Below are positions 1-23,960 of a DNA stretch of 64,000 nucleotides, one piece after another. The translations under genes were made by a program, and so were the position numbers. The notes beneath the pieces were generated by a model. That model saw only the letters and a list, made by a program, of their open reading frames with translations. It did no database searches and was not told the origin of the DNA. The DNA comes from Streptomyces sp. NBC_00569 (lineage in GTDB: Bacteria; Actinomycetota; Actinomycetes; Streptomycetales; Streptomycetaceae): NCBI RefSeq assembly GCF_036345255.1, contig NZ_CP107783.1, positions 1,922,001-1,986,000 on the forward strand, written 5' to 3'. Numbering within the stretch: the stretch's first letter is position 1; each line of letters starts with the position of its first letter.

Positions 1-2286
1 CATGTCCCCCCAGGGGAACAGCCGCCCGTCCGTGCCGCGTGCGGCAGCCTCCCATTCGATGACCGTCGGCAGACGTTTACCCTCGAACGAGGCGAAAGCG
101 TGGGCGCTCCACCAGCTGACGCAGATCGCCGGGTGGGCGTCGTAGTGCGGGTTCTCGTAGTAGTCGGGCCGTCGCAGCCGGTCGGTCCAGGGGTGGTGTG
201 TGACGTGGGCGGGCTGGTCGGGGTGGTCCCACCGTGAAGTACCGTCCGCGCCAAGGGCGTCGAGGAAGCGGCGATAGCGTGCGACAGTCACGGCATGGCG
301 GTCGAAACGTACAGGGCGCGGGACCCGCCGCATCAGCAGCCGTTCGGCCGGGCCGACCAGGTACGTCCCTGCGCGTAGCACGCAGTCGTCCGTCTTAGGA
401 CTGCCGGACATCTGGGCAAGGAAGGCACGCACTTGCTCGGTGAGGAAGGCGCCGCCGGGAATGTCTGCTGCAGTGTCACGGTGAACTGCCTCGGTAAGGT
501 ACCGGGCCGCCAGCAGCTCCTGGTACGCCGTGTGTACGAAGGCGACGTGATCCGGACCGGCGGGCCGCAGTAGCGGGGAGAGGACACACGTGTCGAGACC
601 GAAACTCCCGTCCGTGAAGGCGTCGGCCCCCAGTAGCCGGTGCACGTCGAGGAGGGAGAAGACCGTTCGATCGGTGAGGAAGGCCTGTCCGAACGCGGCG
701 GGTAACCGTTCTTCCAGACCAGGCCGCCCGCGCTCGGCCAAGGCCCGCGTGATGTGCGTGCCGAGGACGTCTGCGAGCGGCTGACCTGACGGCAGCGCGA
801 GTTCGGCGGCCAGGTGCCTTTCCAGGGGTGTGGCGCCGGGCTCGGCCAGGCGCACCACATGGAAGTGCGGAACGCGCGCCGGGTCGACGCCGTTCGCGTA
901 CATCTGCTCGACCAATTGCTCGGAACGCCCCGCGCCGCTGTCCAGCAGCTGACGCACTTGTGGCGAGTCAGCAAGGAAAGACACGCGGGAACTCATGATC
1001 ACCGCCGACTCGGCGGACAGCACGGCGGCGAGGTCGGTGAAGAGCCGCAGGAACCCGGCCGCGCTTGGTTCCTCGACCCCTTCGTCGACGGCGTCGAGCA
1101 CGCACAGTGCGACCCCGGAACGGATCAGGTAGAGAAAGAGGTCGTAGGCACGAGAGCGGTCGGTTGTCATGGCCGGCGCCAGCAGGCGCGCCGCGTACTC
1201 GGAGAACGGCTCGTCCTTCGGTTTGAGACCGAGGTCGAAGTAGAAACGGAAGCGGCGGATGCCCGGGCTCAGGGCGAGAGAGCGCAGAAGGGTGCTCTTC
1301 CCGCTGCCCGGACGACCGGTGACCAGAACGTTCGCACTCCCGCATGCCAAGCGCGTCAACAGCTCAGCCGCATCTTCGGACTGCACCACCTTCGACCCGC
1401 CGGTGTACGGGTCGGTGGTCATGACCGCCGCCGTCACGGCCATGCGTGGTTCGGCAGGGGCCGGGGTGGCCAGAGCGGCAAGGTGGGCTTCGAGATTGAC
1501 GATGGTGTCGACAAAGCCGTCGTAACGCACGATCCGGAAATCCACACCCAGCATCTGATGGAGCGGCCCCGTCGCCGTGCCGCCGCCGACATCGTCCAAG
1601 ATGACGAACCGGGTGAGCTTGGGCAGCCGGGTGCGCAGCAACTCACCCCCGCTGGAGGCAAGAACGGTACCCAGATCGTCCGCGTCCTTGGAGAGCATCA
1701 GCTCCACGTACTCCAGGCGCATCCCCGACTCACGGCAGAACAGCAAGTACACCGTGTCGGAGCTCAGGACGAACCGCTTGGCCTGGCGATAGCCGAGGGT
1801 GACGTACAGCCCGGCCAAAAACTCGCACCTGCGTGCCACCTCGAGCGCCATGTCCGGCTCACCACCGAGAAGCGCCGCGCTTCCGGTGTCGGTGAACCAG
1901 ACCAGTACGTCGACGAGCCGGCGGACCGCCAGCAGCCCGTCCTCGTCGCTGATGTCGTACCCGTCGTGTGTGGATCGGTTGCGCAGCCGCCGGATGTCTT
2001 CCAACGCGTCCACGACCGTGCTGCTCCGGATATGTGGACGGCAGCGCTTGACAAGGTCGTTCAGGGCCTTCGTCGACGGGTCGCCCTCAATGCCGTGATG
2101 GCGCCACAGCTGCTTGAGCAGCTTTTCCGTCAATTTCCCGATCAGAGCGACTGCATTCTCGGGGTAACCGTCGTTGAGGGACCGCAGCGGCCGTTCGAGA
2201 TCGAGCCCTAATCGGTCGGCGATCCGCGAGTGGTCGTCGAGTTCGCTCCGCAGCCGCCTCAGCCGCTCGTCGACCACGGTGCTCAC
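1..2286 (-). CDS. HEPN-NACHT-FGE-sulfatase domain protein (3' end beyond window)
   Basis: An uninterrupted minus-strand frame of 762 codons starts at GTG 2286 and runs off the left edge. The N-terminus has a HEPN-like helical region with an RNxxxH motif (R102-H107). A NACHT-type P-loop NTPase follows, with Walker A GRPGSGKS (324-331), Walker B LCVLDAVDEG (D398) and the NLR-like segment AYQELLAARYL near residue 583. From about residue 650 it matches the start of a formylglycine-generating-enzyme/sulfatase domain (GKRLPTVIEWEAAARGTDG, PWGD). The catalytic end of that domain lies outside the window. The GTG overlaps the TGA of the upstream methyltransferase (GTGA), so the two are probably co-translated. 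NACHT and HEPN domains are typical of bacterial NLR-like antiphage proteins; that role is inferred here. The middle section (130-300) is unassigned. Confidence 0.85.
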   Translation of the reverse strand, partial: MSTVVDERLRRLRSELDDHSRIADRLGLDLERPLRSLNDGYPENAVALIGKLTEKLLKQLWRHHGIEGDPSTKALNDLVKRCRPHIRSSTVVDALEDIRRLRNRSTHDGYDISDEDGLLAVRRLVDVLVWFTDTGSAALLGGEPDMALEVARRCEFLAGLYVTLGYRQAKRFVLSSDTVYLLFCRESGMRLEYVELMLSKDADDLGTVLASSGGELLRTRLPKLTRFVILDDVGGGTATGPLHQMLGVDFRIVRYDGFVDTIVNLEAHLAALATPAPAEPRMAVTAAVMTTDPYTGGSKVVQSEDAAELLTRLACGSANVLVTGRPGSGKSTLLRSLALSPGIRRFRFYFDLGLKPKDEPFSEYAARLLAPAMTTDRSRAYDLFLYLIRSGVALCVLDAVDEGVEEPSAAGFLRLFTDLAAVLSAESAVIMSSRVSFLADSPQVRQLLDSGAGRSEQLVEQMYANGVDPARVPHFHVVRLAEPGATPLERHLAAELALPSGQPLADVLGTHITRALAERGRPGLEERLPAAFGQAFLTDRTVFSLLDVHRLLGADAFTDGSFGLDTCVLSPLLRPAGPDHVAFVHTAYQELLAARYLTEAVHRDTAADIPGGAFLTEQVRAFLAQMSGSPKTDDCVLRAGTYLVGPAERLLMRRVPRPVRFDRHAVTVARYRRFLDALGADGTSRWDHPDQPAHVTHHPWTDRLRRPDYYENPHYDAHPAICVSWWSAHAFASFEGKRLPTVIEWEAAARGTDGRLFPWGDM

Positions 2287-3059
2287 ACTCCCTCCTCTCG
2301 CCGCCGCCCGAGGACGAACGCGAACCGGTCGGGAAACACCAGGACAGGCTCAGGATGAGCGACTCGTATCTCCTCGATGCCCTTCTCGATCTCACTGTCG
2401 CTGAACGTGGAGAGCAGGGACATGTAGCGGGCACGGACCATACCGAGGTATTTGTCCCGATCGATGCGCAGCTCGTGCTCGACGTGGGTCAGCGAGGCTT
2501 CCAGCCCGGCAGCACGCAGATGTCCCTCGATGGCGGCCGGATCCGGCTGCAGTTCCTCAAAGCGTGCGAGGGCCGCTTCGAACAGCGGGTACTGAATGGA
2601 TGCCGGAAGCATCACGACCAGTATCCGACCTCCGGGTGCCAGCGAGTCGGCGAGGCCCTGGAGCGTATGCCCAGGGTCCGTCACATGGTGCACAGACTCT
2701 TTCAGCCACATCGCATCAAACTGTCCGTACGGCAAGTCGACGCGCTTCTCCGCGATGTCTTCAGCCGAAGCGACGACCGGGGTCAAACCTGGAGACGGCG
2801 GTGTGCCGAGTCGGCTGAGCATCGCTTCTGACGGGTCGACGCACAGAAGGGGGTGATGTGGCCGGATCTGCCTGACAACTTCCCGGGCGAACAGTCCGGT
2901 GCCTGACCCGATGTCGGCGATGCGGTCGTTGGGGCTCAGCTGCAATGCCTCCGCGATCTGGCTGGCCATCCAGGGCACATAGTCGGAGTCGTAGACCCAG
3001 TGCTCGTCATACTCGGCTGCCAGCCCCGCGTAGTGCCCTCGCATGTCGCGCTGCTCCAC
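2283..3059 (-). CDS. class I SAM-dependent methyltransferase
   Basis: 258 aa. The Rossmann SAM-binding motif I is clear (IADIGSGTGLFAREV, about residues 47-61), followed by an acidic motif II (CVDPSEAML) and a post-motif region (APGGRILVVMLPAS). This fits small-molecule or ubiE-like methyltransferases more than DNA methylases, since no NPPY/DPPY motif is visible. The substrate cannot be read from the sequence. It overlaps the downstream HEPN-NACHT gene by four bases, so the pair is likely one transcription unit. Confidence 0.85.
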   Translation of the reverse strand: MEQRDMRGHYAGLAAEYDEHWVYDSDYVPWMASQIAEALQLSPNDRIADIGSGTGLFAREVVRQIRPHHPLLCVDPSEAMLSRLGTPPSPGLTPVVASAEDIAEKRVDLPYGQFDAMWLKESVHHVTDPGHTLQGLADSLAPGGRILVVMLPASIQYPLFEAALARFEELQPDPAAIEGHLRAAGLEASLTHVEHELRIDRDKYLGMVRARYMSLLSTFSDSEIEKGIEEIRVAHPEPVLVFPDRFAFVLGRRREEGV

Positions 3060-3412: not shown

Positions 3413-3836
3413 CGTTGGGGTCGAAGGCGCCGGGCGTGGCCGCCAGGACGAACTGGACGCTGCCGTCGCAGACTACGAACGCGTAGGTAATCCCGCGAAC
3501 GAGCTGTCCGATCGCCCGTTGATGCTCGGCGTGGTCTTGAATCCATGCGCGCACCGGGCGGGCCAGATGGTCATCTAGCTGGTCAGCAACGTGTCCGGCT
3601 CGCCATCCGATCCAGGCCAGCGCCTGCTCAGGCGTCCAGCAAGCCTGTCCGCCCATCCAGAGCATGCGGCTGTCGCAGAGATGAGCGGCAGCAACGCACC
3701 AGAAGGAGCCCGGAACAGGCGCTTGAGGAGAGTGCCGGTCGTGAGTTCCCTGCGGCGGGGCCCGGTCCACGACCAAGGGGCGGTCCGCCCGCGGCGCGCG
3801 GAGGGCAGGTACGTGAGGAGCCTCTCGCCCTGTCAC
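3396..3836 (-). CDS. hypothetical protein coupled to HATPase gene
   Basis: 146 aa from GTG 3836, which overlaps the TGA of the HATPase gene (GTGA). The C-terminal two thirds (WIGWRAGHVADQLDDHLARP onwards, then GSVQFVLAATPGAF) look like a real soluble domain. The N-terminal 50 residues are low-complexity, so a downstream start is possible. No family recognised; position suggests a role with the anti-sigma-type ATPase. Confidence 0.5.
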   Translation of the reverse strand: MTGREAPHVPALRAPRADRPLVVDRAPPQGTHDRHSPQAPVPGSFWCVAAAHLCDSRMLWMGGQACWTPEQALAWIGWRAGHVADQLDDHLARPVRAWIQDHAEHQRAIGQLVRGITYAFVVCDGSVQFVLAATPGAFDPNGDGAP

Positions 3837-4345
3837 AGCGCGCCTGCCGTTTGCTCAGGCAGAGCGACCGCGGCCTCAACTCGGGTCCCGTCGGAGAGCG
3901 GTGTGGACTCCCATCGGGTGGTCAGGGCCTCGACGAGGGCCAGGCCTCGTCCGTGTTCTTCCTCGGAACGCGCCTTTCGTGCGACGGGCGTTCCGCACAG
4001 TCCCTGGTCAGTGACGGTCACGCTGGCCTCAGTGTCGGTGACGGACACAGTGATCTCGATGGTCCGACTCGCTGTATGGACCACGGCGTTGGTGACGAGC
4101 TCACTGACGATGAGCCGGAGCACCTCGACGGTGTCGTCGGCGATCTGCCACTCGCGCAGAGCATCGACCGTGTGCGCGCGGGCGTGGGCCACGCTGGAAC
4201 GCGAAGCTCCAGGCAAGGCCACCCTGCGCCGGCGCGGAGGACAAGGGCCGACTTGAGGGTGAGCTGTGGGAAGGCCTACCGGCTGGACCGGTTCGAGGTC
4301 ACGTGGTGCGGTGGCGTCGTAGCGCGCAGGAGGAGTCGGTTTCAT
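3833..4345 (-). CDS. HATPase (anti-sigma factor-type) regulatory protein
   Basis: 170 aa from the ATG at 4345, which overlaps the upstream stop (ATGA). The RsbW/SpoIIAB-like GHKL ATPase motifs are present: N box IVSELVTNAVVHT, G1 VTDQG, and G2-like EEHGRGLALVEALTTRW. Streptomyces has many such short kinases, often next to WhiJ-type regulators. They are thought to bind sigma factors or other partners and phosphorylate antagonists. The frame is open further upstream, but the coupled start at 4345 fits the family length. Confidence 0.8.
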   Translation of the reverse strand: MKPTPPARYDATAPRDLEPVQPVGLPTAHPQVGPCPPRRRRVALPGASRSSVAHARAHTVDALREWQIADDTVEVLRLIVSELVTNAVVHTASRTIEITVSVTDTEASVTVTDQGLCGTPVARKARSEEEHGRGLALVEALTTRWESTPLSDGTRVEAAVALPEQTAGAL

Positions 4346-4842
4346 GTGAGGCGCGCCCCTCCCGAGCATGTCGGTCGCGTGGGGGAGAGCCAAGGCGCCG
4401 CCAGCGTGACCAGTGCGGTGGTGATGGCCTCGCACAACACATCGCTGTCGGTAGTGGCCGGCCTTTCGGGGGCGGGGGCGCAGATCCACGTTCGACCGCC
4501 CGTGTGGCGACGGCTGGCGGCCGTGAATTCCGGTGCAGGGCACCACATCTCGGCATCTTCAACGCAATTTGTGCCGGGCAGCGCAGGCCAGGTAGCCCGT
4601 GTGCCCGCTGCGACGACAATCTCGGCCGCGTAGCGGGCGCAGTTGGCCAGGATCGGTCCCAGCGGTGTTCCGCTCGCCTCAAGCACAGCCAGAGCTGCGA
4701 CGGCCACGGTGCCACTGACGCGTAAGACTTCCGCGCCGGTAATCCGTACGGTGCCGCAGCGGCCCAAGAGCCAGGCCCGTTGGAGCCCCTCCCCCGGTTC
4801 GGCGCCGGGCGTCCAGCTCTCAGCCCTGCCATAGGCGGCCAT
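4342..4842 (-). CDS. hypothetical protein, WhiJ-type cassette
   Basis: 166 aa from ATG 4842, which shares a base with the stop of the upstream gene (TGATG) and overlaps the HATPase start at its own end. It is rich in alanine and has scattered cysteines, with a central segment (VAVAALAVLEASGTPLGPIL) that could be a buried helix. No family recognised. The couplings on both sides argue that it is a real operon member. Confidence 0.6.
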   Translation of the reverse strand: MAAYGRAESWTPGAEPGEGLQRAWLLGRCGTVRITGAEVLRVSGTVAVAALAVLEASGTPLGPILANCARYAAEIVVAAGTRATWPALPGTNCVEDAEMWCPAPEFTAASRRHTGGRTWICAPAPERPATTDSDVLCEAITTALVTLAAPWLSPTRPTCSGGARLT

Positions 4843-5186: not shown

Positions 5187-5322
5187 TGCGCACCTGCTGC
5201 GCAAGTGCGCAGCAAGTTCGCGGCAAGTTTGCACATGCGTGAGGAATATTCAGCGATGGGAGATGGCTCATGGGTGCAGCTCGTAGGGGTAGTGGGGCAG
5301 ACTGTGCGCAAGAAGGTGCGCA
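5187..5322. promoter_or_regulatory. divergent promoter region with five TGCGCA boxes
   Basis: TGCGCA occurs at 5187, 5198, 5206, 5305 and 5317. Four of the five continue as TGCGCA followed by A or G, giving near-direct repeats such as GTGCGCAAG. They lie between the minus operon and the XRE start at 5354 and are good candidates for operators of the XRE protein. The same hexamer is the core of the two iteron-like fields at 9839-10399 and 14156-14894. Confidence 0.4.
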
Positions 5323-5353
5323 AGTTCAGCGGCGACGAAAGGGGCGGCGACGC

Positions 5354-6220
5354 ATGGCTCCACCCCAGTCAGCGACAGCAAAGCGCCGGTCGCTTGGCGC
5401 GGAGATCAAGCGACTGCGCAAGGCCCGCGGCCTGAAGGCTTCGGATCTTGCCGAGCGGTTGAAGTGCAGCGAAACCCGTATCAGCCGACTGGAGACTGGC
5501 ACGGGGCGCGTGCGTCTCCTGGAGAACGAGGTGCTGTCACTCTGCTCACTGCTCGGCGTCGAGGACGAGCAGCAAGTACAGACGATGCTCGACCTAGCCT
5601 CCGAGTCGGAGCAGTCCTCGGCCTGGTGGGACACGTACCGCGGCGTGCTGCCGAGCGGTCTAGGCGCGCTTCTCGCCTTTGAGACTGACGCCCTGTCGGA
5701 GCGCGCTTGGGAATCCAGCCTGATCCATGGGCTATTGCAGACCGCGGACTATGCCCACGCCATCTTGTCGGCATGGCCGGATAACCGGCCGATCGATGTG
5801 GACGATCTCGTGAGCGTGCGAATGCGTCGAGCTGAACTCCTCACGACAGAGGACAAGCCTCCACTGGACTTCTGGGCGATCCTGGACGAAACGGTGATCC
5901 GCAGGCCCGTCGGCAGCGAGGCCGTCATGCAGGGCCAGATTCGTCATCTGCTCAAGATGGCGGATCTACCGAACGTGACGCTTCAGATCATGCCGATGAG
6001 CAAGGGGGCTCACCCCGGCCTCGGCGGCGCCTTCTCCATCCTCGACTTCGAAGAGGCTGCTCCAGTCGTCTACGTCGACAGCCCGGCAGGAAACCTCTAC
6101 CTCAACAAGCGGGTCGACCTCAGAAGGTTCTCGGCGTCCTTCGATCTGCTACGAGCGCGGTCACTTGATCCCGACGATTCAGCCGCACTACTCAGGGACG
6201 CCACAAGGGAGAAGCAATGA
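5354..6220 (+). CDS. XRE-family regulator with DUF5753 domain (WhiJ-like)
   Basis: 288 aa from ATG 5354; the frame is open upstream but that part is arginine-rich junk. An N-terminal Cro/CI helix-turn-helix spans about residues 17-70 (LGAEIKRLRKARGLKASDLA, SETRISRLETG). It is followed by the DUF5753 domain, including the typical WESSLIHGLLQTADYA and QIMPMSKGAHPG segments. In Streptomyces such proteins are paralogues of the sporulation regulator WhiJ and work with a small DUF397 protein, encoded here by the overlapping next gene (ATGA). Confidence 0.92.
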   Translation: MAPPQSATAKRRSLGAEIKRLRKARGLKASDLAERLKCSETRISRLETGTGRVRLLENEVLSLCSLLGVEDEQQVQTMLDLASESEQSSAWWDTYRGVLPSGLGALLAFETDALSERAWESSLIHGLLQTADYAHAILSAWPDNRPIDVDDLVSVRMRRAELLTTEDKPPLDFWAILDETVIRRPVGSEAVMQGQIRHLLKMADLPNVTLQIMPMSKGAHPGLGGAFSILDFEEAAPVVYVDSPAGNLYLNKRVDLRRFSASFDLLRARSLDPDDSAALLRDATREKQ

Positions 6221-7256: not shown

Positions 7257-8237
7257 TCACATGGCCAGCGATGCAGGCGGGTCCAGTGCCTGGTCCAGGG
7301 ACTGAGGACTGCCGCCGCGAGCTGCGTTCCACCACGTCTTGCCCCACGGACCACGCTCATGCAGCCGAGTCAGGGTGGTACCGACGACCGGGAACGACGG
7401 ATCGAGACTGTCGACCAGGTTCATCACGACCGCAGCCCGGTTGAGGACGCTGGATTCGCTGCGTCCACTCAGCACGAAGGCGACCACTGGCTGCTGATCC
7501 TCGGGCACGTGCCAGCGAGCGCGCCACCACAGGCGCCCCTGCTTGTCGCGGCGCTCGACGTACTGCTGGTAGCGGCGGATCTTCGCCACGACGCGTTCGG
7601 GCACCATCGTGGAGCGGTCGACCTCCACGAACATCAGCGGCAACTGGTGCCCGTGGTCGCAGACGACCAAGTCGGACTGCACCGAGCCGTATCCCGGCTC
7701 CGCGTCGGTGCCGGTGACCGGCAGACCGACCTCGGTGCTCATCGCCTCCAGACTGCCAAGACCTTGCGGCCGGCTGTCCACCACGGCCTGATCGGCAGGG
7801 CTGAGGCGATCGTAGGCACTTTGCGTGGGTCGGGGCTGCAGCAGTCCCAGCACGGTGGCGTTGACGTCGAGAGCGTGCGCGGCGCCGTGGGAGGCAGCGC
7901 CCCGCGCGATGGAGCCCATCTCCGCTATCGGCCGCTCCAGCGCGAGGGCGGCCGCCTCCAGCCCGCTGGGAGTCAGCCCGTACAGCTTGGTGCCGGCTCG
8001 GCTGCGGCCCTCGGAGATCACGAGGCCGTGACGCGCCAGGTCCAGGGCGGCGTTGCGGTGTGCGGCCGTGCGGCTGCCCCGATTGCTCGGGGCCGGGTGG
8101 CGGTAGGTCAGGTGTGGACGCGTGAGTTCCTGGATCTGCTCCGCTGTGGCCACCTTCAACACCCCTAGCACTCGCAGGATGTCCTCGCGCAACGGAGCCG
8201 TCGACCCGTAGGGCCACAGCGCATTTTTTGATGCCAT
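7257..8237 (-). CDS. replication-relaxation family protein
   Basis: 326 aa from ATG 8237, which overlaps the stop of the small upstream gene (TGATG); a TTG lies just before. An N-terminal winged-helix-like part (ILRVLGVLKVATAEQIQELT) is followed by the conserved SDLVV...MFVEVDRSTM core and RRYQQYVERRD helix seen in the actinobacterial plasmid replication-relaxation (MobC-like) family. Members are found beside plasmid rep genes and are linked to replication or relaxosome function. Third gene of the Rep operon. Confidence 0.8.
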   Translation of the reverse strand: MASKNALWPYGSTAPLREDILRVLGVLKVATAEQIQELTRPHLTYRHPAPSNRGSRTAAHRNAALDLARHGLVISEGRSRAGTKLYGLTPSGLEAAALALERPIAEMGSIARGAASHGAAHALDVNATVLGLLQPRPTQSAYDRLSPADQAVVDSRPQGLGSLEAMSTEVGLPVTGTDAEPGYGSVQSDLVVCDHGHQLPLMFVEVDRSTMVPERVVAKIRRYQQYVERRDKQGRLWWRARWHVPEDQQPVVAFVLSGRSESSVLNRAAVVMNLVDSLDPSFPVVGTTLTRLHERGPWGKTWWNAARGGSPQSLDQALDPPASLAM

Positions 8238-8497
8238 CAACGCCTCCCCGACATGGCCATTTGATCGGCGATCCGTGTGTCAGGGGTGGCGGGTTCAAGT
8301 CGATCTGGCCGGCCGGGCGGGCGGCCCTGCCACTGCTGTACATGGGTTGGTCGCCTCGAAGGTGTCGGCAGTTGATGCCTGTCGGGGTACGTTGTGCGCC
8401 ACGGAATCTGGCAGCACGGCGAGCCGGTGCAGCGCGGCGCCGATGCACCACCCTGCTGCTGCGTCCCACACGGCGGCCGCCCGATCGTCGCCACCAT
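8237..8497 (-). CDS. small plasmid protein between Rep and relaxation genes
   Basis: 86 aa from ATG 8497, preceded by a strong ribosome-binding site (GGGGAGGG). The frame is also open back to a GTG at 8539 that overlaps the Rep stop. Its own stop overlaps the start of the replication-relaxation gene. The composition is basic and proline-rich and no family is recognised. The translational couplings are the main support. Confidence 0.45.
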   Translation of the reverse strand: MVATIGRPPCGTQQQGGASAPRCTGSPCCQIPWRTTYPDRHQLPTPSRRPTHVQQWQGRPPGRPDRLEPATPDTRIADQMAMSGRR

Positions 8498-10575: not shown

Positions 10576-10672
10576 GGCGTCATCCCTAGTGCTCTGACCG
10601 CCTATGTTCGCCGGGTTGGTGGTCGTGGCGGTTGGATGTGCGGTGACGTCCGTTCCGACCGCTGGAGGCGCG

Positions 10673-11794
10673 GTGGCTGAGCCTGTCCGTGTGCGCAGAC
10701 TGACTGACCAGGAGGGGCAGCGGCTGCAGCAGATCGTGCGCCGGGGCAGCACGAGTTCGGTGCGCTACCGGCGGGCGATGATGCTGCTGGCCTCTGCCGG
10801 CGGCAACCGGGTGCCAGTGATTGCCCAGTTGGTGCAGGCCGACGAGGACACCGTGCGCGATGTGATCCACCGGTTCAACGAGATCGGCCTGGCCTGTCTG
10901 GACCCTCGGTGGGCGGGAGGCCGTCCCCGCCTACTCAGCTCTGACGACGAGGACTTCGTCGTGCAGACGGCCACCACCCGCCCCGCCAAGCTCGGCCAGC
11001 CGTTCACCCGGTGGTCACTGCGCAAACTCGTCGCCTACCTGCGGAAAAAGCACGGTCGGATGATCCGCATCGGCCGAGAGGCGTTACGCAGCCTGCTCGC
11101 CCGCCGCGGTGTCACCTTCCAGCGCACCAAGACGGGGAAGGAATCCCCCGACCCGGACCGTGAAGCGAAGCTGGACCGGATCGAGGAGGTCCTGGACCGT
11201 TTCCCCGACCGAGTGTTCGCCTTCGATGAGTTCGGACCACTCGGAATCCGGCCCACCGCAGGCTCGGGTTGGGCCGAACGGAAACGTCCCGACCGGGTGC
11301 CGGCCACCTACCACCGCACTCACGGAGTCCGGTACTTCCACGGCTGCTACTCGGTCGGTGACGACCGCCTGTGGGGCGTCAACCGCCGCAGGAAAGGTGC
11401 CGCGAACACGCTGGCCGCGCTGAAGTCGATCCGCGCCGCCCGGCCCGACGGCGCCCCGATCTACCTGATCATGGACAACTTGTCCGCCCACAAGGGCGCC
11501 GACATCCGGCGCTGGGCGAAGAAGCACAAGGTCGAGTTGTGCTTCACCCCGACCTACGCCTCGTGGGCAAACCCGATCGAGGCGCACTTCGGACCGTTGA
11601 GACAGTTCACCATCGCCAACTCGAACTATCCCAACCACCCCGTGCAGACCCGAGCCCTGCACGCCTACCTGCGCTGGCGCAACGCGAACGCCCGCCACCA
11701 CGACGTCCTTGCCGCCGAACGCAAGGAACGCACCCGCATCCGAAGCGAGAAGGGCATCCGCTGGGGCGGACGCCCACTCACGACGGCAGCCTGA
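10673..11794 (+). CDS. IS630-family transposase
   Basis: 373 aa from GTG 10673; an ATG at 10604 lies inside the terminal repeat and is less likely. An N-terminal helix-turn-helix (VIAQLVQADEDTVRDVIHRF) precedes the DDE domain, with catalytic residues in FAFDEFGPL, IYLIMDNLSAHK and SWANPIEAHF. The frame is complete, so the element may still be active. Confidence 0.93.
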   Translation: MAEPVRVRRLTDQEGQRLQQIVRRGSTSSVRYRRAMMLLASAGGNRVPVIAQLVQADEDTVRDVIHRFNEIGLACLDPRWAGGRPRLLSSDDEDFVVQTATTRPAKLGQPFTRWSLRKLVAYLRKKHGRMIRIGREALRSLLARRGVTFQRTKTGKESPDPDREAKLDRIEEVLDRFPDRVFAFDEFGPLGIRPTAGSGWAERKRPDRVPATYHRTHGVRYFHGCYSVGDDRLWGVNRRRKGAANTLAALKSIRAARPDGAPIYLIMDNLSAHKGADIRRWAKKHKVELCFTPTYASWANPIEAHFGPLRQFTIANSNYPNHPVQTRALHAYLRWRNANARHHDVLAAERKERTRIRSEKGIRWGGRPLTTAA

Positions 11795-16327: not shown

Positions 16328-16869
16328 GCGCGGCCGAGCCGGTGCGCACGGCCCGGTTCTACACGAGCGCGCGTCGTCTGCCGTGGGTGATCGGGAAGTT
16401 CGCCGACTGGAAGATCTGGTTCGGCCCCTACAACGCCGTGCAGATCGGCGTCATGTCGATCGGTGGCCTGGCTCTGGTGCGCACCGCCTCGTACTGGTGG
16501 TCGCTGCTGGGCCCCGTACCGGTCGTCCTGTGGGTGGTGGCAATCTTCGTGTGCCGCCGCCACAAGATCGCAGGTCGCACCCCGGTGGGCGCAGCCCTCG
16601 GCGTGGGGCTCCGGCTGCTGCAGCCGGCAGGCGGGCGGATCGGCGGCCGCGCCGCCCGCGGGCCTCGCCCCCAGGCATTCTCCGGCGCCTTCACCCTGCA
16701 GGCCCTCACCAAGGCCGAGCCCTCGGCCGTCACTGAACGGGTCACCGTCGCCCGGCCTCAGCGGCGCACCGCCCGCCGCCCGGCACCACGGCAGTCCGCG
16801 TCGGCCGCCGTGCGCCGTCCGCTCTCTCCGGTCCAGGCCGCTCTCCTCGCAGCGAAGGAGCAGAACTGA
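16324..16869 (+). CDS. TcpE/PrgI-like membrane protein
   Basis: 181 aa from GTG 16324. The N-terminal part (FADWKIWFGPYNAVQIGVMS) and two adjacent membrane helices (PVPVVLWVVAIFVCRRHKI) match the TcpE family, VirB3-like proteins that partner the VirB4 ATPase. The C-terminal 80 residues are basic and proline/alanine-rich, likely cytoplasmic and disordered. Confidence 0.75.
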   Translation: MSAAEPVRTARFYTSARRLPWVIGKFADWKIWFGPYNAVQIGVMSIGGLALVRTASYWWSLLGPVPVVLWVVAIFVCRRHKIAGRTPVGAALGVGLRLLQPAGGRIGGRAARGPRPQAFSGAFTLQALTKAEPSAVTERVTVARPQRRTARRPAPRQSASAAVRRPLSPVQAALLAAKEQN

Positions 16870-19565
16870 TGCGTGTTCCCATCCGCCACATAGCCGGGCA
16901 TCTGCTGTGGTCGGCCGAGGACCACACATGGGCCGTGTACCGCCTGCACCCTGGCGCGGACGAGCCCGGCCACAGCGGCGAGGCGGTCACCGGTGCCTAC
17001 CTTCCCGCCGCGGTCCGCGAGGAGCAATTGCAGCGCATCACGCAGCTGGTGCGTTCCCTGTCGGGTGAGCCGCGGCTGTTCGGGGTGTGCGCGCAAGTCG
17101 ACCCGTCCGAGGTCGCGTGGCTCATGCTCGAAGGCCTCCACGACGAGACCGGGGACTTGATGCCCGAAGCCGGTCCGTGGGTCGAGCACGTCGAGGCCGC
17201 GTTGGACCTTCTGGACGGGCAGGAGATGCACCGCCGCACGCTGTGGCTGGCCGTGCCTCTCTCGCGTGACGCCAGGGGCGGGCGCGGGATGGTCGCACGC
17301 GGCCTGGGAATCGGCGCGCTGGGTGAACTGTCCGACTCTCTGGGGCTGAAGCCGTCGCCGGTCAGTGACACCAATGTGGCCCGGGCGGGTGAGAAGGCCG
17401 CACAGATCGAGGCGCAGATGGCTGGTGCGGTTTCCTTCCGGCCGGCGCGTCCAGCGGAGATCGTCTGGCTCATCCAGCACGCACTGCACCGCGGCATCAG
17501 TGAGCCCCTGTTGTCCGAGGCGGCCTCGAGTGCACTGTATGCGGGACGGGTGCGGGACGGACTGCTGTTCTCCCCGAGCTACGCGGACCTCGGCCAGGTC
17601 CGCCTCGAGGAAGGCGGCGCACCGCGCGCGGCGACAGCAGGAGCCAGCGCCCGGCACGCACTGTTCGGGGGACTCCTTAAGCGGGGCAGCGGCTCTTCAA
17701 GTGTGACGGGCCGGCAGTGGGTCAAGGACGCGACGTCGCCGATCCAGCGCCGGTGGCTGCAGGTCGAGACGCCGCAGGGAACCGGGTATCAGGCGCATCT
17801 GGTGCTGGCCGAATGCCCGCCCGCGCTGTCCGCGCAGGCCGCTGACCTGTTCGCGCAGCTCGACGTCCTTGATTTTCCGGTCGACTTCACCGTCAGTCTC
17901 ACCCTGGTGGAGGCCGCCGAGGCGCGGCGCAAGATCCAGCGCAAGCGCACCGAGCTGGTCGACCAGGTCGACCAGTACGACGCCCGCCCCACCGGTCTGC
18001 CTTCCGACATCCCGGAAGCGGCCCGGGACCTGAGCGAGATGGACGCGCGCCTCGCGCGGACGTCAGCCGAGGTAGAGGTGCAGTCCATCACGGTGCTCAC
18101 CGTGTGGGCACCGACATCGGCCCTGTGTGATGCCCGGGCACGTGCGCTGGAGAAGCTGCTGGCCGGTGTCGACTACCGGATTGTGCGGCCAGTCGGCTTG
18201 CAGAGCGATCTGTTCGCTCTTGGGCTGCCCGGCAGTGTCTGTCCGCTCACGGTAAGGGAATTCACCCAGCACCAGGTGGCGGAGGACTGGGCGATGTCCG
18301 GTGCTTTCGCCCGCAGCGAGGTGGGGGACCCGAACGGTGTCCTGCTCGGCTTCGACCTGGACTGCGGCACTCCCCGGCCCGTGATGATCAACGTCGCTGA
18401 CGCACCCAAGCAGGATGCGAGTGCCTCACTCGCCGTCATCGGGGATCTCGGTGGCGGCAAGAGCGTCCTGCAGAAGAGCCTGGAAAGCGCGGTGGTCGAC
18501 CGAGGGGCGCGGGCCATTTGCATCGACCGGACCCCGGTGCGCGAGTGGGCGACCTTCGCCAAGGGGGCGGCTGCGGGGCGGTGTCAGGTCATCGACGCTG
18601 CGCAGGCCGAGTTGTCCATCGACCCACTCCGTCTGTTCCCCGGCCCCGAGGGACGCCAGTACGCGCTCAACTACTTGACCCTTCAGCTCGGCATCGGCGC
18701 CATGAGCGTCCAGGGCGAAGTCCTGCACCACGCCGTCGAGCAGGCCGCGAGCATGCCCGACGCCTCAATGGCCAAGGTCATACAGGTCCTAGTGCAGACG
18801 GCCGCGGCCGCAACCGGCAAGCGCAGCGATGCGGCCGCGTCGGTCGCGGGGATGCTGAGCCTGGTCACCAGCAGCCCGCTCGCAGCCATGGTGTTCGACC
18901 CGAGCCTGCCGATTGCCCGCCTGAACGGCTCCACAACAGCTGACCTGATCGTCATCACCACGGCCGGGCTGACACTGCCGCCTAAGCAGGCCTTCGAGAA
19001 CCCGGAGATCCTCCACCAGCAGCCCCTCGAAGCGCTGATCGGCCGCGCGGTGCTGTATCTGATCGCAGCGATGGCACGGCAGGCGGCGTTCGCTGACCCG
19101 TCCCGCTTCTGCGCCGTGGTCACCGACGAGCTGTACTGGCTGACCAGCTCCGCCGAAGGCACCGCGCTCGTGCACGAGATCCTGCACGACGGCCGCAAGC
19201 ACAACGCCGGGCTGTTCGCCGGGTCCCACGACGAGAGGGAACTCGGCCCCGACCGCGGGCTGTTTGCCTACAAGGCCCTCGCTCGCACCGCGGATCGTGA
19301 GCGCGCCCGCCGCGGCCTGGACTTCATCGGTCTGGACGGCCGCGACGAGGACCTGGTCCGTCTGGTGACCACCGACCTGTCCCCCGTCGGTGTCACCGAA
19401 CGTGCCGGCGAAATCCTCCTCACGGGGCCGCGACAGAACACCGGCCGCATCAAGGTCCGTATCCCCGCCGTGAAGCGCATCGCCGACCACATCACCACCA
19501 CCCCCGGCAAGAGCCCGCGCACCGCGGTCGCCACGCCGCGAGCGACGAAGGAGGTGTCGGCATGA
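16869..19565 (+). CDS. virB4: VirB4-like T4SS ATPase
   Basis: 898 aa. It has an N-terminal domain of about 450 residues followed by a RecA-like ATPase core, with Walker A GDLGGGKS (525-532) and Walker B VVTDELYW (D753-E754). The HDGRKHNAGLFAGSHDERE stretch after Walker B is typical of VirB4/TraC. It would energise channel assembly and transport at the inner face of the membrane. ATG 16869 shares a base with the preceding stop (TGATG). Confidence 0.9.
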   Translation: MRVPIRHIAGHLLWSAEDHTWAVYRLHPGADEPGHSGEAVTGAYLPAAVREEQLQRITQLVRSLSGEPRLFGVCAQVDPSEVAWLMLEGLHDETGDLMPEAGPWVEHVEAALDLLDGQEMHRRTLWLAVPLSRDARGGRGMVARGLGIGALGELSDSLGLKPSPVSDTNVARAGEKAAQIEAQMAGAVSFRPARPAEIVWLIQHALHRGISEPLLSEAASSALYAGRVRDGLLFSPSYADLGQVRLEEGGAPRAATAGASARHALFGGLLKRGSGSSSVTGRQWVKDATSPIQRRWLQVETPQGTGYQAHLVLAECPPALSAQAADLFAQLDVLDFPVDFTVSLTLVEAAEARRKIQRKRTELVDQVDQYDARPTGLPSDIPEAARDLSEMDARLARTSAEVEVQSITVLTVWAPTSALCDARARALEKLLAGVDYRIVRPVGLQSDLFALGLPGSVCPLTVREFTQHQVAEDWAMSGAFARSEVGDPNGVLLGFDLDCGTPRPVMINVADAPKQDASASLAVIGDLGGGKSVLQKSLESAVVDRGARAICIDRTPVREWATFAKGAAAGRCQVIDAAQAELSIDPLRLFPGPEGRQYALNYLTLQLGIGAMSVQGEVLHHAVEQAASMPDASMAKVIQVLVQTAAAATGKRSDAAASVAGMLSLVTSSPLAAMVFDPSLPIARLNGSTTADLIVITTAGLTLPPKQAFENPEILHQQPLEALIGRAVLYLIAAMARQAAFADPSRFCAVVTDELYWLTSSAEGTALVHEILHDGRKHNAGLFAGSHDERELGPDRGLFAYKALARTADRERARRGLDFIGLDGRDEDLVRLVTTDLSPVGVTERAGEILLTGPRQNTGRIKVRIPAVKRIADHITTTPGKSPRTAVATPRATKEVSA

Positions 19566-19966
19566 CAACGGGCCTGTGGGCGCGCCGCCGCGCGGCTGCC
19601 AGCTGCACCGCGACCGGCATCGTGATCGCCCTGCTGATTGCCGCGATCATTTGCGTCATCGTCGAGCCCGGTGTCCCCTCCGGCTGGTGGCCGCAGACCG
19701 GGAACGCGTTCGCCGCCTCCCCCAGCGACCGCGTCACGACGCCGGCTCAAGGTGCTGCACACGGAAAGGCTCCCGCCCCCACGCCGTCCAAGGGATCAGA
19801 GGTGTGTGACGTGATCGTGGGGCCGGCACACGACTACTGCCTGCGTGCTCCGGGCCCGCAGAGCGCCAGCGGCACGTTCACGCGGGGCGTCCTGTGGCCG
19901 CTGGGTGTTCTGGCGGTCGGCATCACAGCCCTTTTCGTCCTCCGCCGCCGTCGTCGGGGGTTGTGA
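19562..19966 (+). CDS. two-helix membrane protein of the T4SS
   Basis: 134 aa. A first membrane helix (IVIALLIAAIICVIVEPGVP), a roughly 70-residue external loop with two cysteines (EVCDVI, DYCLRA), and a second helix (WPLGVLAVGITALFVLRRRR) ending in an arginine stop-transfer patch. No family recognised. It overlaps both neighbours (ATGA before, TGATG after), so it is likely a stoichiometric channel partner. Confidence 0.7.
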   Translation: MTTGLWARRRAAASCTATGIVIALLIAAIICVIVEPGVPSGWWPQTGNAFAASPSDRVTTPAQGAAHGKAPAPTPSKGSEVCDVIVGPAHDYCLRAPGPQSASGTFTRGVLWPLGVLAVGITALFVLRRRRRGL

Positions 19967-22785
19967 TGTGGCGCCCGGATCGCGGCACGCTGCGTGCCGC
20001 CGGCTTCGTCGCGCTGCTGGTGACGGTGTTCCTCACGGTGAACACGTCCGTCGCCTACGCCGCCAACAGTGCGAGCGCGCAGGGCGGGCTGCTGTCCCCG
20101 CTCGAGCTGGACACCTCCGAAGGCGTCTCCCTCAAGGGCTACGAACTCGGCGCGCAGGGCGGCAGCATTTTCTCGTTCACGTCGAACTGGCAGGCGCTGA
20201 TCCTCAGCGGCTTGTTCACCGTGGTCCGGGTCTTTGTCGGGCTGGCGTGCTGGGCTATTCAGGTCGCCTACCGCTTCCCGCTGCTGAAGCTGCTGACGAA
20301 GCCGGCGCAGCATCTGTCGGACGTCTACACCGAGACGGTGGTCGACGATCTCGGTCTGAAGAGCATGTTGCTTGCGTGGGCGTTCGTGTTCGGGCTGGTG
20401 CTGGTGGTGCGCGGCAAGCACGCCAAGGGGATCGGTGAGATCGCACTCACGCTCGTCATCGGTGCGCTGGCCGCCTCGGTGTTCGTCACGCCGAACTTCC
20501 TCCTCGGCAAGGACGGTCCGATCTTGCAGACCCAGTCGGCCGCAGCTGACATCGCCGAGAAGACCGTCAACGCCCACTCCTGGGGCGGGAAGATCTCCTC
20601 GGACGACCCGTGCGCGACCGTGTCCGGGCCCGCGTATCAGACCTGCTACGACGCCCAGGACGCCAAGACCCCTGAGGCGCGGAAGATCGCCAAGCCGATC
20701 CAGGACGCAGTGACCAACTCCCTCGTGGTCAAGCCCTTCATGCTCCTCGAATACGGGCGGATCCTCGACCCGTCCAACCCTGCCGACCGCAAGGCCTACC
20801 AGGTGCACCTGATGTGGGTGTCCGGCGCCTACAAACCCAAGCCATTGGAGCCGGCACAAAGCAGCGACACGGACGACATCTGCAAGAAGATCAAGGGCCC
20901 TGGCCGGAAGTACTGCGAGCGCCGCGAGGGTGATGACGCGATCCCGCCTCACTCCGACTTGCCCAGCCTCACCGTCGGCGAGCAGCTACTGGACGCCACC
21001 ACAAGTCCGGTGGTCTCCCAGGAGGATCAGGAGTTCGCCGCGTTCCTCGGAGACTTGAGGAAGGCCGGGCCGGTCGGCAAGGAGTGTGCCGATTACGCAA
21101 GGCAGCCCACCTGGTGGCGCGTCGCCTCCGTCGTCATGGTGCTCATCGCAGCCCTACTGATCTGTGCGCTGCTGCTGTCGGCCGCCATGGTGCTCGTGGG
21201 GATCACGGCGGTGTGCGCGGCGGCCGCCGCGAGTGGCGGGGTGTGCTTCGTGTGGGGCATGCTGCCCGGCCCGAGCAGGTCAGCGGTGTGGAAATGGCTG
21301 GCCCTGTTCGGAATCTCGATGGCCGCGATCCTCGCCATCTCCACGTTCATCCCGGCCGTCGGGATCACCATCGACGTCATCCTGACCAACGGACCGGACC
21401 TATTGGCCGAGCGCCTCCTGCTCATCGATGTCGTAGCCATCGTCGGCCTCGCCTTCCACCGGCGCCTCCTGATGGTGATCACGTCGTTCAGCCAGCGCCT
21501 CACGCTGCGGATGCGGTACGCGAAGATCGGCGGCAGCCACATGGCCGGCGACTCCCAGCTGGGTGCCGCGCTCGCCATGAGCGGCGTAGGCGGCGGTGGC
21601 TATCTCGCCGCAGGGTCACTGCGCGGGCGCGGCAGGACGGGCCTCAGCACGGCCGGACTCGTGCAGGGCGTGCTCGGTGGCTTCACCGACGGGTCTGGGA
21701 TGCCGGGCGAACCGGCACGACTGCTGGCCGACGCGAACGCGGAGGCCTCCCGCGGCCTGGCGCCGATCGGTGCGGCCGTCGTCGGGGCCCGGCTCGCTGC
21801 GGGTGGCGCGTTCTCGCTGCTGGTCGGCAAGAAGCCCGACGAGGCGACGTTCGCCAAGCTCCGCAAGCCGACCGCTGAAGGCGACGACCCCAACGCGGCG
21901 CAAAACGGCGGAGGCCAGAAGCAGGCAGGCTCGGGCAGGCTTGGCGGCGGGCCGAAGGACCGCTATCGCGACGACGACGGCACGGTCATCGACCCCGACA
22001 CCGGGGAGGTCCTGCACGACCAGAAGACCGACCGCACGCTGCTTTCCACCCGGGCTCACAACCGGCTGGTCAGGCTGCGCGGATACCGGCTCGCCCACCG
22101 AGGCGGACGGTTCGCCTACGCCTCCACGATGGGCCTGCCCACAACCGTCCGCACGACGCAGGCAGGTGCCAGCCGTGCCACCCACGACACCCGTCAGCAG
22201 CTGCGCGTGTGGGGCAATACCGTGCGCCAGGACCGCCGCGGCTGGGCCAGCTCAGCCCAGGGCGCCAAGAACCTCATCAACCAGGCAGGCGTTCAGAACG
22301 CGTCGGCGAGCAGCCGGCGTCTCCCCCCTCCCGCCGCGTCCGCGTCGACAGCACGCGGCACGCTGCAGCCGACTGGCGGCTCCACGCCGCCCGCGTCGTC
22401 CGGAGCGTCCGGGAGCGGCTGGCAGCCAGGCAGTCCGCGACCCACGTCCTGGCCCATGGCCGGTCCGCGCCCAGGCACAGGCCCCGGTGCCGCCGGTGCC
22501 GGGCAGGGGTCGGGGGCGCGGCCTTCGGCGGGTCCTCGATCCGCTGCACCTAGCGCGACCTCTCCGGCTCACTCACCCGCAGCGCCTCCGCCCGCGGCGC
22601 CTTCGGGCGGTAGCGGCACCTTGCCGCCGAGTACACAGTCCCGGCCGCGCCTCAGTGGCGGAGCAGGTTCCTCCAATTCCTCCCGGCAGGCACAGGAGAT
22701 GTTCCGCCGAATCCAGGAGCGCAACGCCCAAAACCCGCGCCCGCCGGCAGACGACAGCGATGACGAGGACGGAGAGAATTCGTGA
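19966..22785 (+). CDS. VirB6/TrbL-like polytopic conjugation protein
   Basis: 939 aa from ATG 19966. A cleavable-type signal region (FVALLVTVFLTVNTSVAYA) is followed by hydrophobic clusters near residues 75-100, 125-145, 155-175, 385-425, 440-475 and 485-510. The last 430 residues are hydrophilic and then proline/serine-rich, a long cytoplasmic or wall-spanning tail. Size, topology and place after VirB4 fit the VirB6/TrbL (TcpH-like) inner-membrane channel subunit. Confidence 0.8.
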   Translation: MWRPDRGTLRAAGFVALLVTVFLTVNTSVAYAANSASAQGGLLSPLELDTSEGVSLKGYELGAQGGSIFSFTSNWQALILSGLFTVVRVFVGLACWAIQVAYRFPLLKLLTKPAQHLSDVYTETVVDDLGLKSMLLAWAFVFGLVLVVRGKHAKGIGEIALTLVIGALAASVFVTPNFLLGKDGPILQTQSAAADIAEKTVNAHSWGGKISSDDPCATVSGPAYQTCYDAQDAKTPEARKIAKPIQDAVTNSLVVKPFMLLEYGRILDPSNPADRKAYQVHLMWVSGAYKPKPLEPAQSSDTDDICKKIKGPGRKYCERREGDDAIPPHSDLPSLTVGEQLLDATTSPVVSQEDQEFAAFLGDLRKAGPVGKECADYARQPTWWRVASVVMVLIAALLICALLLSAAMVLVGITAVCAAAAASGGVCFVWGMLPGPSRSAVWKWLALFGISMAAILAISTFIPAVGITIDVILTNGPDLLAERLLLIDVVAIVGLAFHRRLLMVITSFSQRLTLRMRYAKIGGSHMAGDSQLGAALAMSGVGGGGYLAAGSLRGRGRTGLSTAGLVQGVLGGFTDGSGMPGEPARLLADANAEASRGLAPIGAAVVGARLAAGGAFSLLVGKKPDEATFAKLRKPTAEGDDPNAAQNGGGQKQAGSGRLGGGPKDRYRDDDGTVIDPDTGEVLHDQKTDRTLLSTRAHNRLVRLRGYRLAHRGGRFAYASTMGLPTTVRTTQAGASRATHDTRQQLRVWGNTVRQDRRGWASSAQGAKNLINQAGVQNASASSRRLPPPAASASTARGTLQPTGGSTPPASSGASGSGWQPGSPRPTSWPMAGPRPGTGPGAAGAGQGSGARPSAGPRSAAPSATSPAHSPAAPPPAAPSGGSGTLPPSTQSRPRLSGGAGSSNSSRQAQEMFRRIQERNAQNPRPPADDSDDEDGENS

Positions 22786-23960
22786 ACGGGACACTTTCCA
22801 GGCGGCGTTCACGCCGATGGATCAAGTGGGGTTGTGTCACCGGCGTGCTGCTGGGGCTGGCCGTGTGCTGCACGGCCCCGGTCTCGGGCGCGGCCAGCAC
22901 CCTGGCGGCCCTCACCCAGCAACAGGAGAAAAGCGACATCGGGCTGGCGGGGGCAGGCGGCAGTGCGGACATCCCGCCCCGCATGCTCGACGCCTACAAG
23001 AACGCCGTCCGGTTGATCGGGACGAAGGTTCCCCGATGCCGGGGCGTGCGCTGGCCCGTCCTGGCCGGGATCGCAAAGGTCGAGTCCAACCACGCCGCCG
23101 GACGCGCCATCGCGAGGGGCGGGGACATCCGACCGCGGATCTACGGAGTCCTGCTCAACGGCTCCGGGGCCGGTGGCAACACGAGCGTGTTCACCGACAC
23201 CGATGGCGGCAAGTGGGATGGCACCGCCGAGGGCGAACGCGCTGTGGGTCCCTTCCAGTTCATGCCCGCCACTTGGGAGTCAACCGGGCAGGACGGCAAC
23301 AAGGACGGCGTGCGCGATCCGCACAACGCGGACGATGCCGCCCTCGGGGCCGCGACCTATCTGTGTGGGCGCGGCCGCGATCTGGGCAAGGCCGGTCAGC
23401 TGCGGGCTGCGATCTTTCAGTACAACCACAGCAATGAGTACGTAGCCAACGTCACGAAGTGGATCGACCAGTACGCGGATGCCGCCCGTTCCGGCGGAGG
23501 TGCCAGCCTGACGGGTCTGAAGGGGAAGGCCCGCGCGGCGCTTCGGGCCGCGCTCGCCCAGCGTGGGGTGCCGTATTCGTGGGGTGGCGGCACCGTGTCG
23601 GGGCCCTCGAGGGGGTTGTGCTGTTCACCGAGTGGAAAGTCGGGCTCTTCGATCACTGGTTTCGACTGTTCGGGACTCACTACCTACGCGTTCGCGCGAG
23701 CTGGGATCAGCTTGCCGCGGACTGCCGCTGCGCAGGCCGGCCGTGGGCGGCGTATCCCTGCCTCGGCCGGTCAAGGTGCGCTCCAGCCGGGTGACTTGGT
23801 GTTCTTCGGCTATATCCCGGGTCGGGATTCGACCATCGATCACGTGGGGATTTACGTCGGTGGCGGCCGCATGATCAACGCTGCCAGGCCGGGCACTGTC
23901 GTGCGTTTCGACCCTGTGGACGCGATGCCTGGGTATGCCGGGGGTGCGAGGCTCCTGTGA
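22782..23960 (+). CDS. lytic transglycosylase / NlpC-P60 cell-wall hydrolase
   Basis: 392 aa from GTG 22782. After a membrane or signal helix (WGCVTGVLLGLAVCCTAPVS) comes a soluble lytic transglycosylase domain (IAKVESNHAAG holds the catalytic Glu; AVGPFQFMPATW, FQYNHSNEYV). An NlpC/P60 peptidase domain follows, with Cys in FDCSGL, His in IDHVGIYVG and a polar residue in MINAARPG. It is the VirB1/TcpG-type enzyme expected to open peptidoglycan for the transfer apparatus. Confidence 0.93.
   Translation: MNGTLSRRRSRRWIKWGCVTGVLLGLAVCCTAPVSGAASTLAALTQQQEKSDIGLAGAGGSADIPPRMLDAYKNAVRLIGTKVPRCRGVRWPVLAGIAKVESNHAAGRAIARGGDIRPRIYGVLLNGSGAGGNTSVFTDTDGGKWDGTAEGERAVGPFQFMPATWESTGQDGNKDGVRDPHNADDAALGAATYLCGRGRDLGKAGQLRAAIFQYNHSNEYVANVTKWIDQYADAARSGGGASLTGLKGKARAALRAALAQRGVPYSWGGGTVSGPSRGLCCSPSGKSGSSITGFDCSGLTTYAFARAGISLPRTAAAQAGRGRRIPASAGQGALQPGDLVFFGYIPGRDSTIDHVGIYVGGGRMINAARPGTVVRFDPVDAMPGYAGGARLL

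Follow-up and report, generated by a model that had tools for sequence, protein, structure and literature searches.

A mobile four-gene operon of Streptomyces encoding a HEPN-NACHT-FGE fusion protein, a candidate NLR-like anti-phage system

The gene described here lies at the left edge of a 64,000-nucleotide (nt) stretch of the Streptomyces sp. NBC_00569 genome (10.3 Mb, single contig), hereafter the window (G000:C1:1922001-1986000), and encodes a HEPN-like N-terminal part, a NACHT/STAND NTPase and a C-terminal formylglycine-generating enzyme (FGE)-sulfatase domain in one protein. Its minus-strand open reading frame, at window positions 1-2286, runs past the window edge. With the sequence to the left of position 1 obtained from the whole genome, the gene was completed to 885 amino acids (aa), ending at genome position 1921629 (window position -371). 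It is the second gene of a four-gene operon in the order class I S-adenosylmethionine (SAM) methyltransferase, HEPN-NACHT-FGE, cold-shock-like and CorA-like. The original prediction treated a single gene; what it said of the fusion itself stands, and the operon with its methyltransferase, cold-shock-like and CorA-like members had been overlooked.

Pfam or motif evidence was found for all three parts that had been predicted to be joined in this protein. The FGE-sulfatase model matches residues 653-871 over its cut-off (expect value (E) 1.3e-33). The NACHT (E 7e-4), nSTAND1 (E 2.5e-4) and AAA models span residues 305-465 approximately and, with E values of 2e-4 to 7e-4, stay below their cut-offs in this copy; both of the divergent orthologues that were scanned, L032 and L037, exceed the NACHT cut-off (2.8e-8 and 1.1e-9). 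A convincing profile match was not found for the middle region (aa 136-295), and no family is assigned to it. In a 28-row alignment R102, N103 and H107 are invariant, as are the Walker residues G327-T332, D398, D401 and E402, which bears out both the RNxxxH-type motif and the intact Walker A and B motifs of the original prediction. A further motif, AYQELLAARYL, is presumably that of a STAND winged helix. The N-terminus, where a failure to match HEPN was to count against the prediction, does match HEPN-clan profiles near their thresholds. DUF4145, which is placed in the HEPN clan in sections of PMC3710099, matches residues 36-121 of the full protein under cut-off (E 0.003), and with N-terminal fragments it matches all 14 copies at E<=1 (best 3e-5), while PF05168 HEPN matches 5 of the 14. 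In a DUF4145 search of the NBC_00569 genome, for which the cut-off is 23.1 bits, the stretch scored 22.8, or 23.8 when its frame neighbours were included. The RNRSTH sequence satisfies the HEPN motif Rx4-6H with a polar residue after R (as given in the same sections of PMC3710099), N103 being the polar residue after R102. The N-terminal domain is accordingly described as HEPN-like and a putative RNase, recognised near threshold. As in NLR-like proteins, a central NTPase with Walker A and B motifs stands between an N-terminal HEPN-clan match and a C-terminal FGE match, and we infer the role of effector for the former and of sensor for the latter.

The sequence in the Protein Data Bank (PDB) closest to the FGE part is CalU17 (E 7e-17), followed by SUMF2 and SUMF1, and the part belongs by sequence to the same domain family as formylglycine-generating enzyme/SUMF1. 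The Cys pair of formylglycine-generating enzymes is catalytic. In the same genome the FGE paralogues L002 and L003 have GGSYxCHxSYC, whereas the fusion and four aligned orthologues have GGSYDN, GGAFDN or GGAYDN with no cysteine at that site; a third family member of the genome (L004) is also without the Cys pair. Because the pair present in the two paralogues is absent, the FGE part looks catalytically dead and is more likely a lectin-fold sensor than an enzyme. The FGE domain has a C-type lectin fold (PMC8195603, in part), and passages of PMC10907252 treat it as a CLec subtype that is fused to STAND NTPases and for which a sensor role is proposed; the same role would apply to this fusion by inference. 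A sensor diversified by a diversity-generating retroelement (DGR) was considered and is unsupported, because the C-terminal segment is largely conserved among orthologues.

Tblastn of the neighbouring genes against the loci showed that, where the sequence extends far enough, the fusion mostly has the methyltransferase upstream and a 426-aa protein downstream. A 4-nt overlap of genes 1 and 2 is present in 41 of the 42 rows in which both are called, L026 being the exception and the rows including repeats of the same copy. Between the fusion and the 426-aa gene lie 252-286 nt (L023 apart), and in the nine loci examined this gap codes for a conserved protein some 86-97 aa long. In 25 of 36 loci all four genes reach a coverage of 90 % or more, a count that generously includes the rearranged L023, whose complete match to the CorA-like gene is about 2.7 kb off and on the other strand, with a fragment left in place; of the remaining 11 loci some are truncated at the end of a contig and others have decayed. 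The methyltransferase matches the PADLOC mads_2 model (E 6.5e-13). All 16 PDB sequence matches of the cold-shock-like protein are cold-shock or related nucleic-acid-binding entries, each weak (E 0.02-0.94), and in Pfam scans of two copies the CSD and CSDE1 models matched without reaching their cut-offs (best E 2.4e-5). For the 426-aa protein no Pfam match over cut-off was found and its profile gave no matches in a PDB sequence search; PADLOC CorA models match 30 of 30 copies (best E 1.5e-11), within the C-terminal half only (about residues 190-390). Four copies were profiled for hydrophobic segments, two having two and two having one. Irregular forms of the operon also occur: at L008:3921-6001 the methyltransferase match is split by about 1.3 kb holding two called genes (103 and 294 aa), and L184:5066-6136 is a remnant in which a partial methyltransferase, the first 27 fusion codons and the CorA-like end are directly consecutive. 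CorA-like genes of L138-L152, 56-81 % identical to that of the operon and with no adjoining cold-shock-like or fusion match, form a separate family. The features of the locus are shown in Table 1.

Table 1 Features of the HEPN-NACHT-FGE operon and adjoining genes (negative window positions lie to the left of position 1)
Feature	Location	Strand	Evidence or remark
HEPN-NACHT-FGE gene	1..2286, continues left to window -371 (L006:629-3286)	(-)	762 of 885 aa visible in the window
HEPN-like (DUF4145-like) domain, aa 1-135	1882..2286	(-)	profiles and dN/dS; most conserved part
RNRSTH motif, R102-H107 (Rx4-6H)	1966..1983	(-)	motif, alignment
Middle region, aa 136-295	1402..1881	(-)	low-confidence alternating helix/strand prediction
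NACHT/STAND NTPase core, aa 296-470	877..1401	(-)	Pfam
Walker A GRPGSGKST, aa 324-332	1291..1317	(-)	motif, alignment
Walker B LCVLDAVDE, aa 394-402	1081..1107	(-)	motif, alignment
AYQELLAARYL, aa 587-597	496..528	(-)	motif, alignment
FGE-sulfatase (C-type-lectin-fold) domain, visible part; full domain aa 653-871	1..330	(-)	Pfam, PDB sequence
Class I SAM methyltransferase gene, 258 aa, operon gene 1	2283..3059	(-)	4-nt overlap with fusion gene
Cold-shock-like gene, 88 aa	L005:17369-17632 without stop, window -631 to -368	(-)	downstream of fusion
CorA-like membrane-protein gene, 426 aa	L005:16089-17369, window -1911 to -631	(-)	last operon gene
DndFGH/SspFGH-like genes	L005:7227-15795, window -10773 to -2205	facing CorA-like gene	PADLOC; convergent with operon

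The fusion gene is genuine and not a chance reading frame, because the median ratio of nonsynonymous to synonymous substitutions (NG86 dN/dS) is 0.138 for the whole gene and 0.046 for the HEPN part, which is the most constrained part of the fusion. The corresponding medians are 0.089 for the NTPase, 0.155 for the FGE domain, 0.181 for the middle region and 0.206 for residues 471-640, and among the partner genes 0.163 for the methyltransferase, 0.168 for the CorA-like and 0.170 for the cold-shock-like gene. These values were calculated from 25 of 40 copies of the fusion (non-identical, full-length), 22 of 40 of the methyltransferase, 23 of 32 of the CorA-like gene and 15 of the cold-shock-like gene, omitting the divergent L032, L033 and L037 and all separately fetched genome copies except that of NBC_00569, and pairs with dS outside 0.05-1.2 were dropped. 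Pairwise distances of the HEPN, NTPase, FGE, methyltransferase and CorA-like sequences correlate across 23 loci, L023 being left out (r 0.87-0.95, with 0 of 999 permutations as high); without four divergent copies the correlation is lower (r 0.36-0.86).

The fusion was found only in Streptomyces in these searches, is patchy in its distribution, and is decayed in some copies. The protein search of the genus returned 22 of 392 genomes at E<=1e-30, NBC_00569 included, of which 19 match over most of the length and one of these 19 has an internal stop. A profile lacking the FGE part found 10 of 293 genomes of the order, all from the same genus (one of nine genera) and two of them fragments, and a HEPN-middle profile found 1 of 346 genomes of the phylum, again NBC_00569. 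The closest named relatives of the fusion are 85-86 % identical and all from Streptomyces, and a scan of genome contigs gave 36 close loci (L007-L042), all titled Streptomyces, the other five matching in the FGE part only. The operon is a mobile cassette with mostly different flanks from locus to locus, because only 9 of 66 flanks (35 loci) have, within the 2000 nt next to the operon, 800 nt or more in common with the flank on the same side at another locus (tblastx, >55 % identity); a few flank pairs share opposite sides. Neither viral contigs (in a scan built on two peptide patterns) nor phage records gave a match to the fusion without its FGE part, and a phage origin was rejected on this account. 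One plasmid record matches, from Streptomyces mirabilis (1.03 Mb).

Genes directly beyond the CorA-like gene match the PADLOC models DndF (E 7e-12), DndG (4e-6) and SspH/DndH (1e-59), and a helix-turn-helix (HTH) gene precedes them; no PADLOC match to DndABCDE was seen among the six proteins of the L005:7227-15795 stretch. On the other side the operon is adjoined by HATPase and HTH-DUF5753 regulators (window 3833-4546 and 5270-6220). HTH-DUF5753 relatives also occur near several orthologous operons, but genes of this kind are frequent in Streptomyces. Further right (window 7257-8240 and 16869-23960) are genes for a replication-relaxation protein, an AAA_10 ATPase and an NlpC/P60-SLT protein, suggesting that the right-hand genes belong to a conjugative or integrative element. 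Transposases of the DDE_3 and IS4/5 kinds lie at 10604-11794, 27518-28402 and 29056-30084. Ten window proteins from 16.3 kb on gave no PADLOC match.

Neighbours of the operon were compared at 33 loci, using up to two genes of at least 100 aa per side that are complete within the locus. Among these 113 proteins (E<=1e-10), the results within the 25 of 138 families listed include JetA2 (1.7e-221), Cas1e (1e-129), Cas6e, DruM/type II methyltransferase and PDC-M02, one protein each. The control, also of 113 proteins, was drawn from chosen regions in related genomes, with at most six genes, those closest to the centre, from each region (19 of 20 regions, genes >1500 aa excluded), and within the 25 of 63 families listed it gave mad3 (6), mad8 (5), RTasHel (2), GajB models (up to 2), C3a206, C3a187 and HEC-07, most of which we take to be broad ATPase, helicase or hydrolase families. 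The comparison suggests, without proving, that the operon keeps company with defence genes. The homologues form a mobile cassette whose neighbours include defence genes; they do not lie consistently in non-defence metabolic operons, the setting that would have told against the original prediction.

In the open-licence full-text literature no description of the three-part fusion or of the operon was found; HEPN-STAND and STAND-FGE fusions have already been published, separately. The antiviral bNACHT/Avs STAND proteins share with the fusion an N-terminal effector, a central STAND NTPase and a C-terminal sensor (sections of PMC12169576), but bNACHT25 and bNACHT32 carry PD-(D/E)XK DNases, whereas the fusion has a HEPN-like effector, an FGE/lectin-fold sensor and three partner genes. 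Bacterial HEPN-STAND fusions, some with C-terminal cold-shock-like domains, appear in the parts of PMC3710099 concerned with them, and a portion of PMC8195603 mentions HEPN or GT4 effectors joined to a STAND module that is inactive; here, in contrast, a separate overlapping gene encodes the cold-shock-like domain, the protein ends in FGE and its Walker motifs are intact. The STAND/NACHT-CLec proteins, putative antigen sensors of which some are DGR-diversified, have the same STAND NTPase and C-terminal FGE, and the passages of PMC10907252 that describe them name EAD8, peptidase or TIR effectors or adaptors, whereas the present fusion has HEPN and a conserved C-terminal segment. CorA membrane effectors of type III CRISPR are activated by SAM-AMP (PMC10600005, in part). 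The membrane protein of the operon shares the CorA model match with these effectors in all 30 copies; it differs in that the match covers the C-terminal half only and that cas10 or type III neighbours were not seen at this locus. No Cas match was present in 16 PADLOC-scanned proteins (six left of the window, ten from 16.3 kb), the nearest right-hand genes being covered by Pfam only and a genome-wide cas10 search not having been made.

The operon is held, with moderate confidence, to be an NLR-like anti-phage system, probably of the abortive type. The parts, their order, conservation and mobility and the nearby defence genes were observed, and every functional step is proposed from them as follows. 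In the resting state the NACHT NTPase would keep the protein inactive. The trigger would be a ligand, derived from the invader or induced by infection, to which the lectin-fold and apparently catalytically dead FGE domain binds. The NACHT core would then bind ATP and oligomerise, bringing HEPN domains together to form an active RNase that could cut cellular and/or viral RNA and lead to dormancy or abortive death. The cold-shock-like protein may present or guard RNA, the CorA-like protein may be a second, membrane-damaging arm or a membrane anchor, and the methyltransferase may modify RNA or a partner protein, either keeping the system off or marking self. A two-armed variant, to which only a small chance is given, is that activated HEPN-NACHT-FGE both cuts RNA and, together with the SAM enzyme, produces or sets free a messenger, derived from SAM or a nucleotide, by which the CorA-like effector is opened; if true, a membrane effector of the CRISPR type would be under the control of an NLR-type sensor.

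Several results weigh against an NLR-like anti-phage system. Profile recognition of HEPN is near threshold, a PDB sequence search with the HEPN-middle profile returned no HEPN chain and one weak, apparently unrelated chain, and the HEPN-NACHT profile gave weak matches only, mostly confined to the P-loop region. The AlphaFold model (28 sequences) is poor (mean predicted local distance difference test (pLDDT) 54.7, predicted template modelling score 0.46), with its best confidence at about residues 491-600. It places helices at 42-63, 75-85, 89-105 and 114-139 and an uncertain helix/strand pattern at 176-261, and within the HEPN region its block means, about 59-81 over residues 41-100, fall below 50 near H107. 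The fusion has no good PADLOC model (best E 5.5e-5, a P-loop match), and its FGE domain is not hypervariable, as its dN/dS indicates. Strict interdependence of the four genes is rejected, because CorA-like and methyltransferase relatives also occur without the fusion. The CorA-like profile matches 53 of 384 genomes of the genus at E<=0.001, fragments included, and of 20 CorA-like loci chosen for the lack of an adjacent intact fusion 17 have no cold-shock-like match and three have one; in the phylum sample the profile matches 1 of 296 genomes, that of NBC_00569. At E<=1e-30 the methyltransferase search matched 24 of 276 Streptomyces genomes, some of the matches being solo or distant. The comparison of neighbours is weak, as each scan lists no more than 25 of its families and control proteins also match PADLOC (RTasHel and GajB models, 2 of 113 each).

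The operon could alternatively be a mobile toxin-antitoxin or addiction cassette, in which HEPN-NACHT is a conditional RNase toxin neutralised by the methyltransferase and/or the cold-shock-like protein and cassette maintenance is the main role. Tight gene overlaps, changing flanks, decayed copies and the description of HEPN domains as toxins (in the parts of PMC3710099 that treat them) agree with such a cassette, but a large STAND switch with a sensor is in our judgement unusual for a simple toxin, no small classical antitoxin was recognised, and defence genes lie nearby, so that this explanation is considered unlikely. It is quite improbable that the operon is a signalling or developmental regulator, its STAND protein sensing a cellular ligand and adjusting RNA turnover or membrane state in growth or stress: the restriction of the fusion to Streptomyces in these searches, the low dN/dS throughout and an FGE domain that is conserved and not variable are in keeping with regulation, but a patchy occurrence (22 of 392 genomes), changing flanks and decayed copies are unlike a core regulator. 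A metabolic operon, in which an EgtB/PvdO-type or FGE enzyme works with the methyltransferase of gene 1, draws on the FGE family match, on CalU17 as the closest PDB sequence and on EgtB and SenA NCBIfam matches that are far below their cut-offs, and it is very improbable and not favoured because the Cys pair is missing, while in our judgement no such pathway is known to involve HEPN or NACHT, and the flanks differ from locus to locus.

The NLR-like proteins of bacteria are regarded as related to the immune receptors of animals and plants. If the anti-phage system works as proposed, this small Streptomyces cassette would be an experimentally tractable HEPN-armed NLR, with a CorA-like effector linked to a STAND switch instead of to CRISPR. 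Lectin folds of the FGE kind fused to STAND NTPases are, according to the passages of PMC10907252 on them, not yet experimentally characterised, and the cassette would then allow a direct test of whether such folds sense infection.
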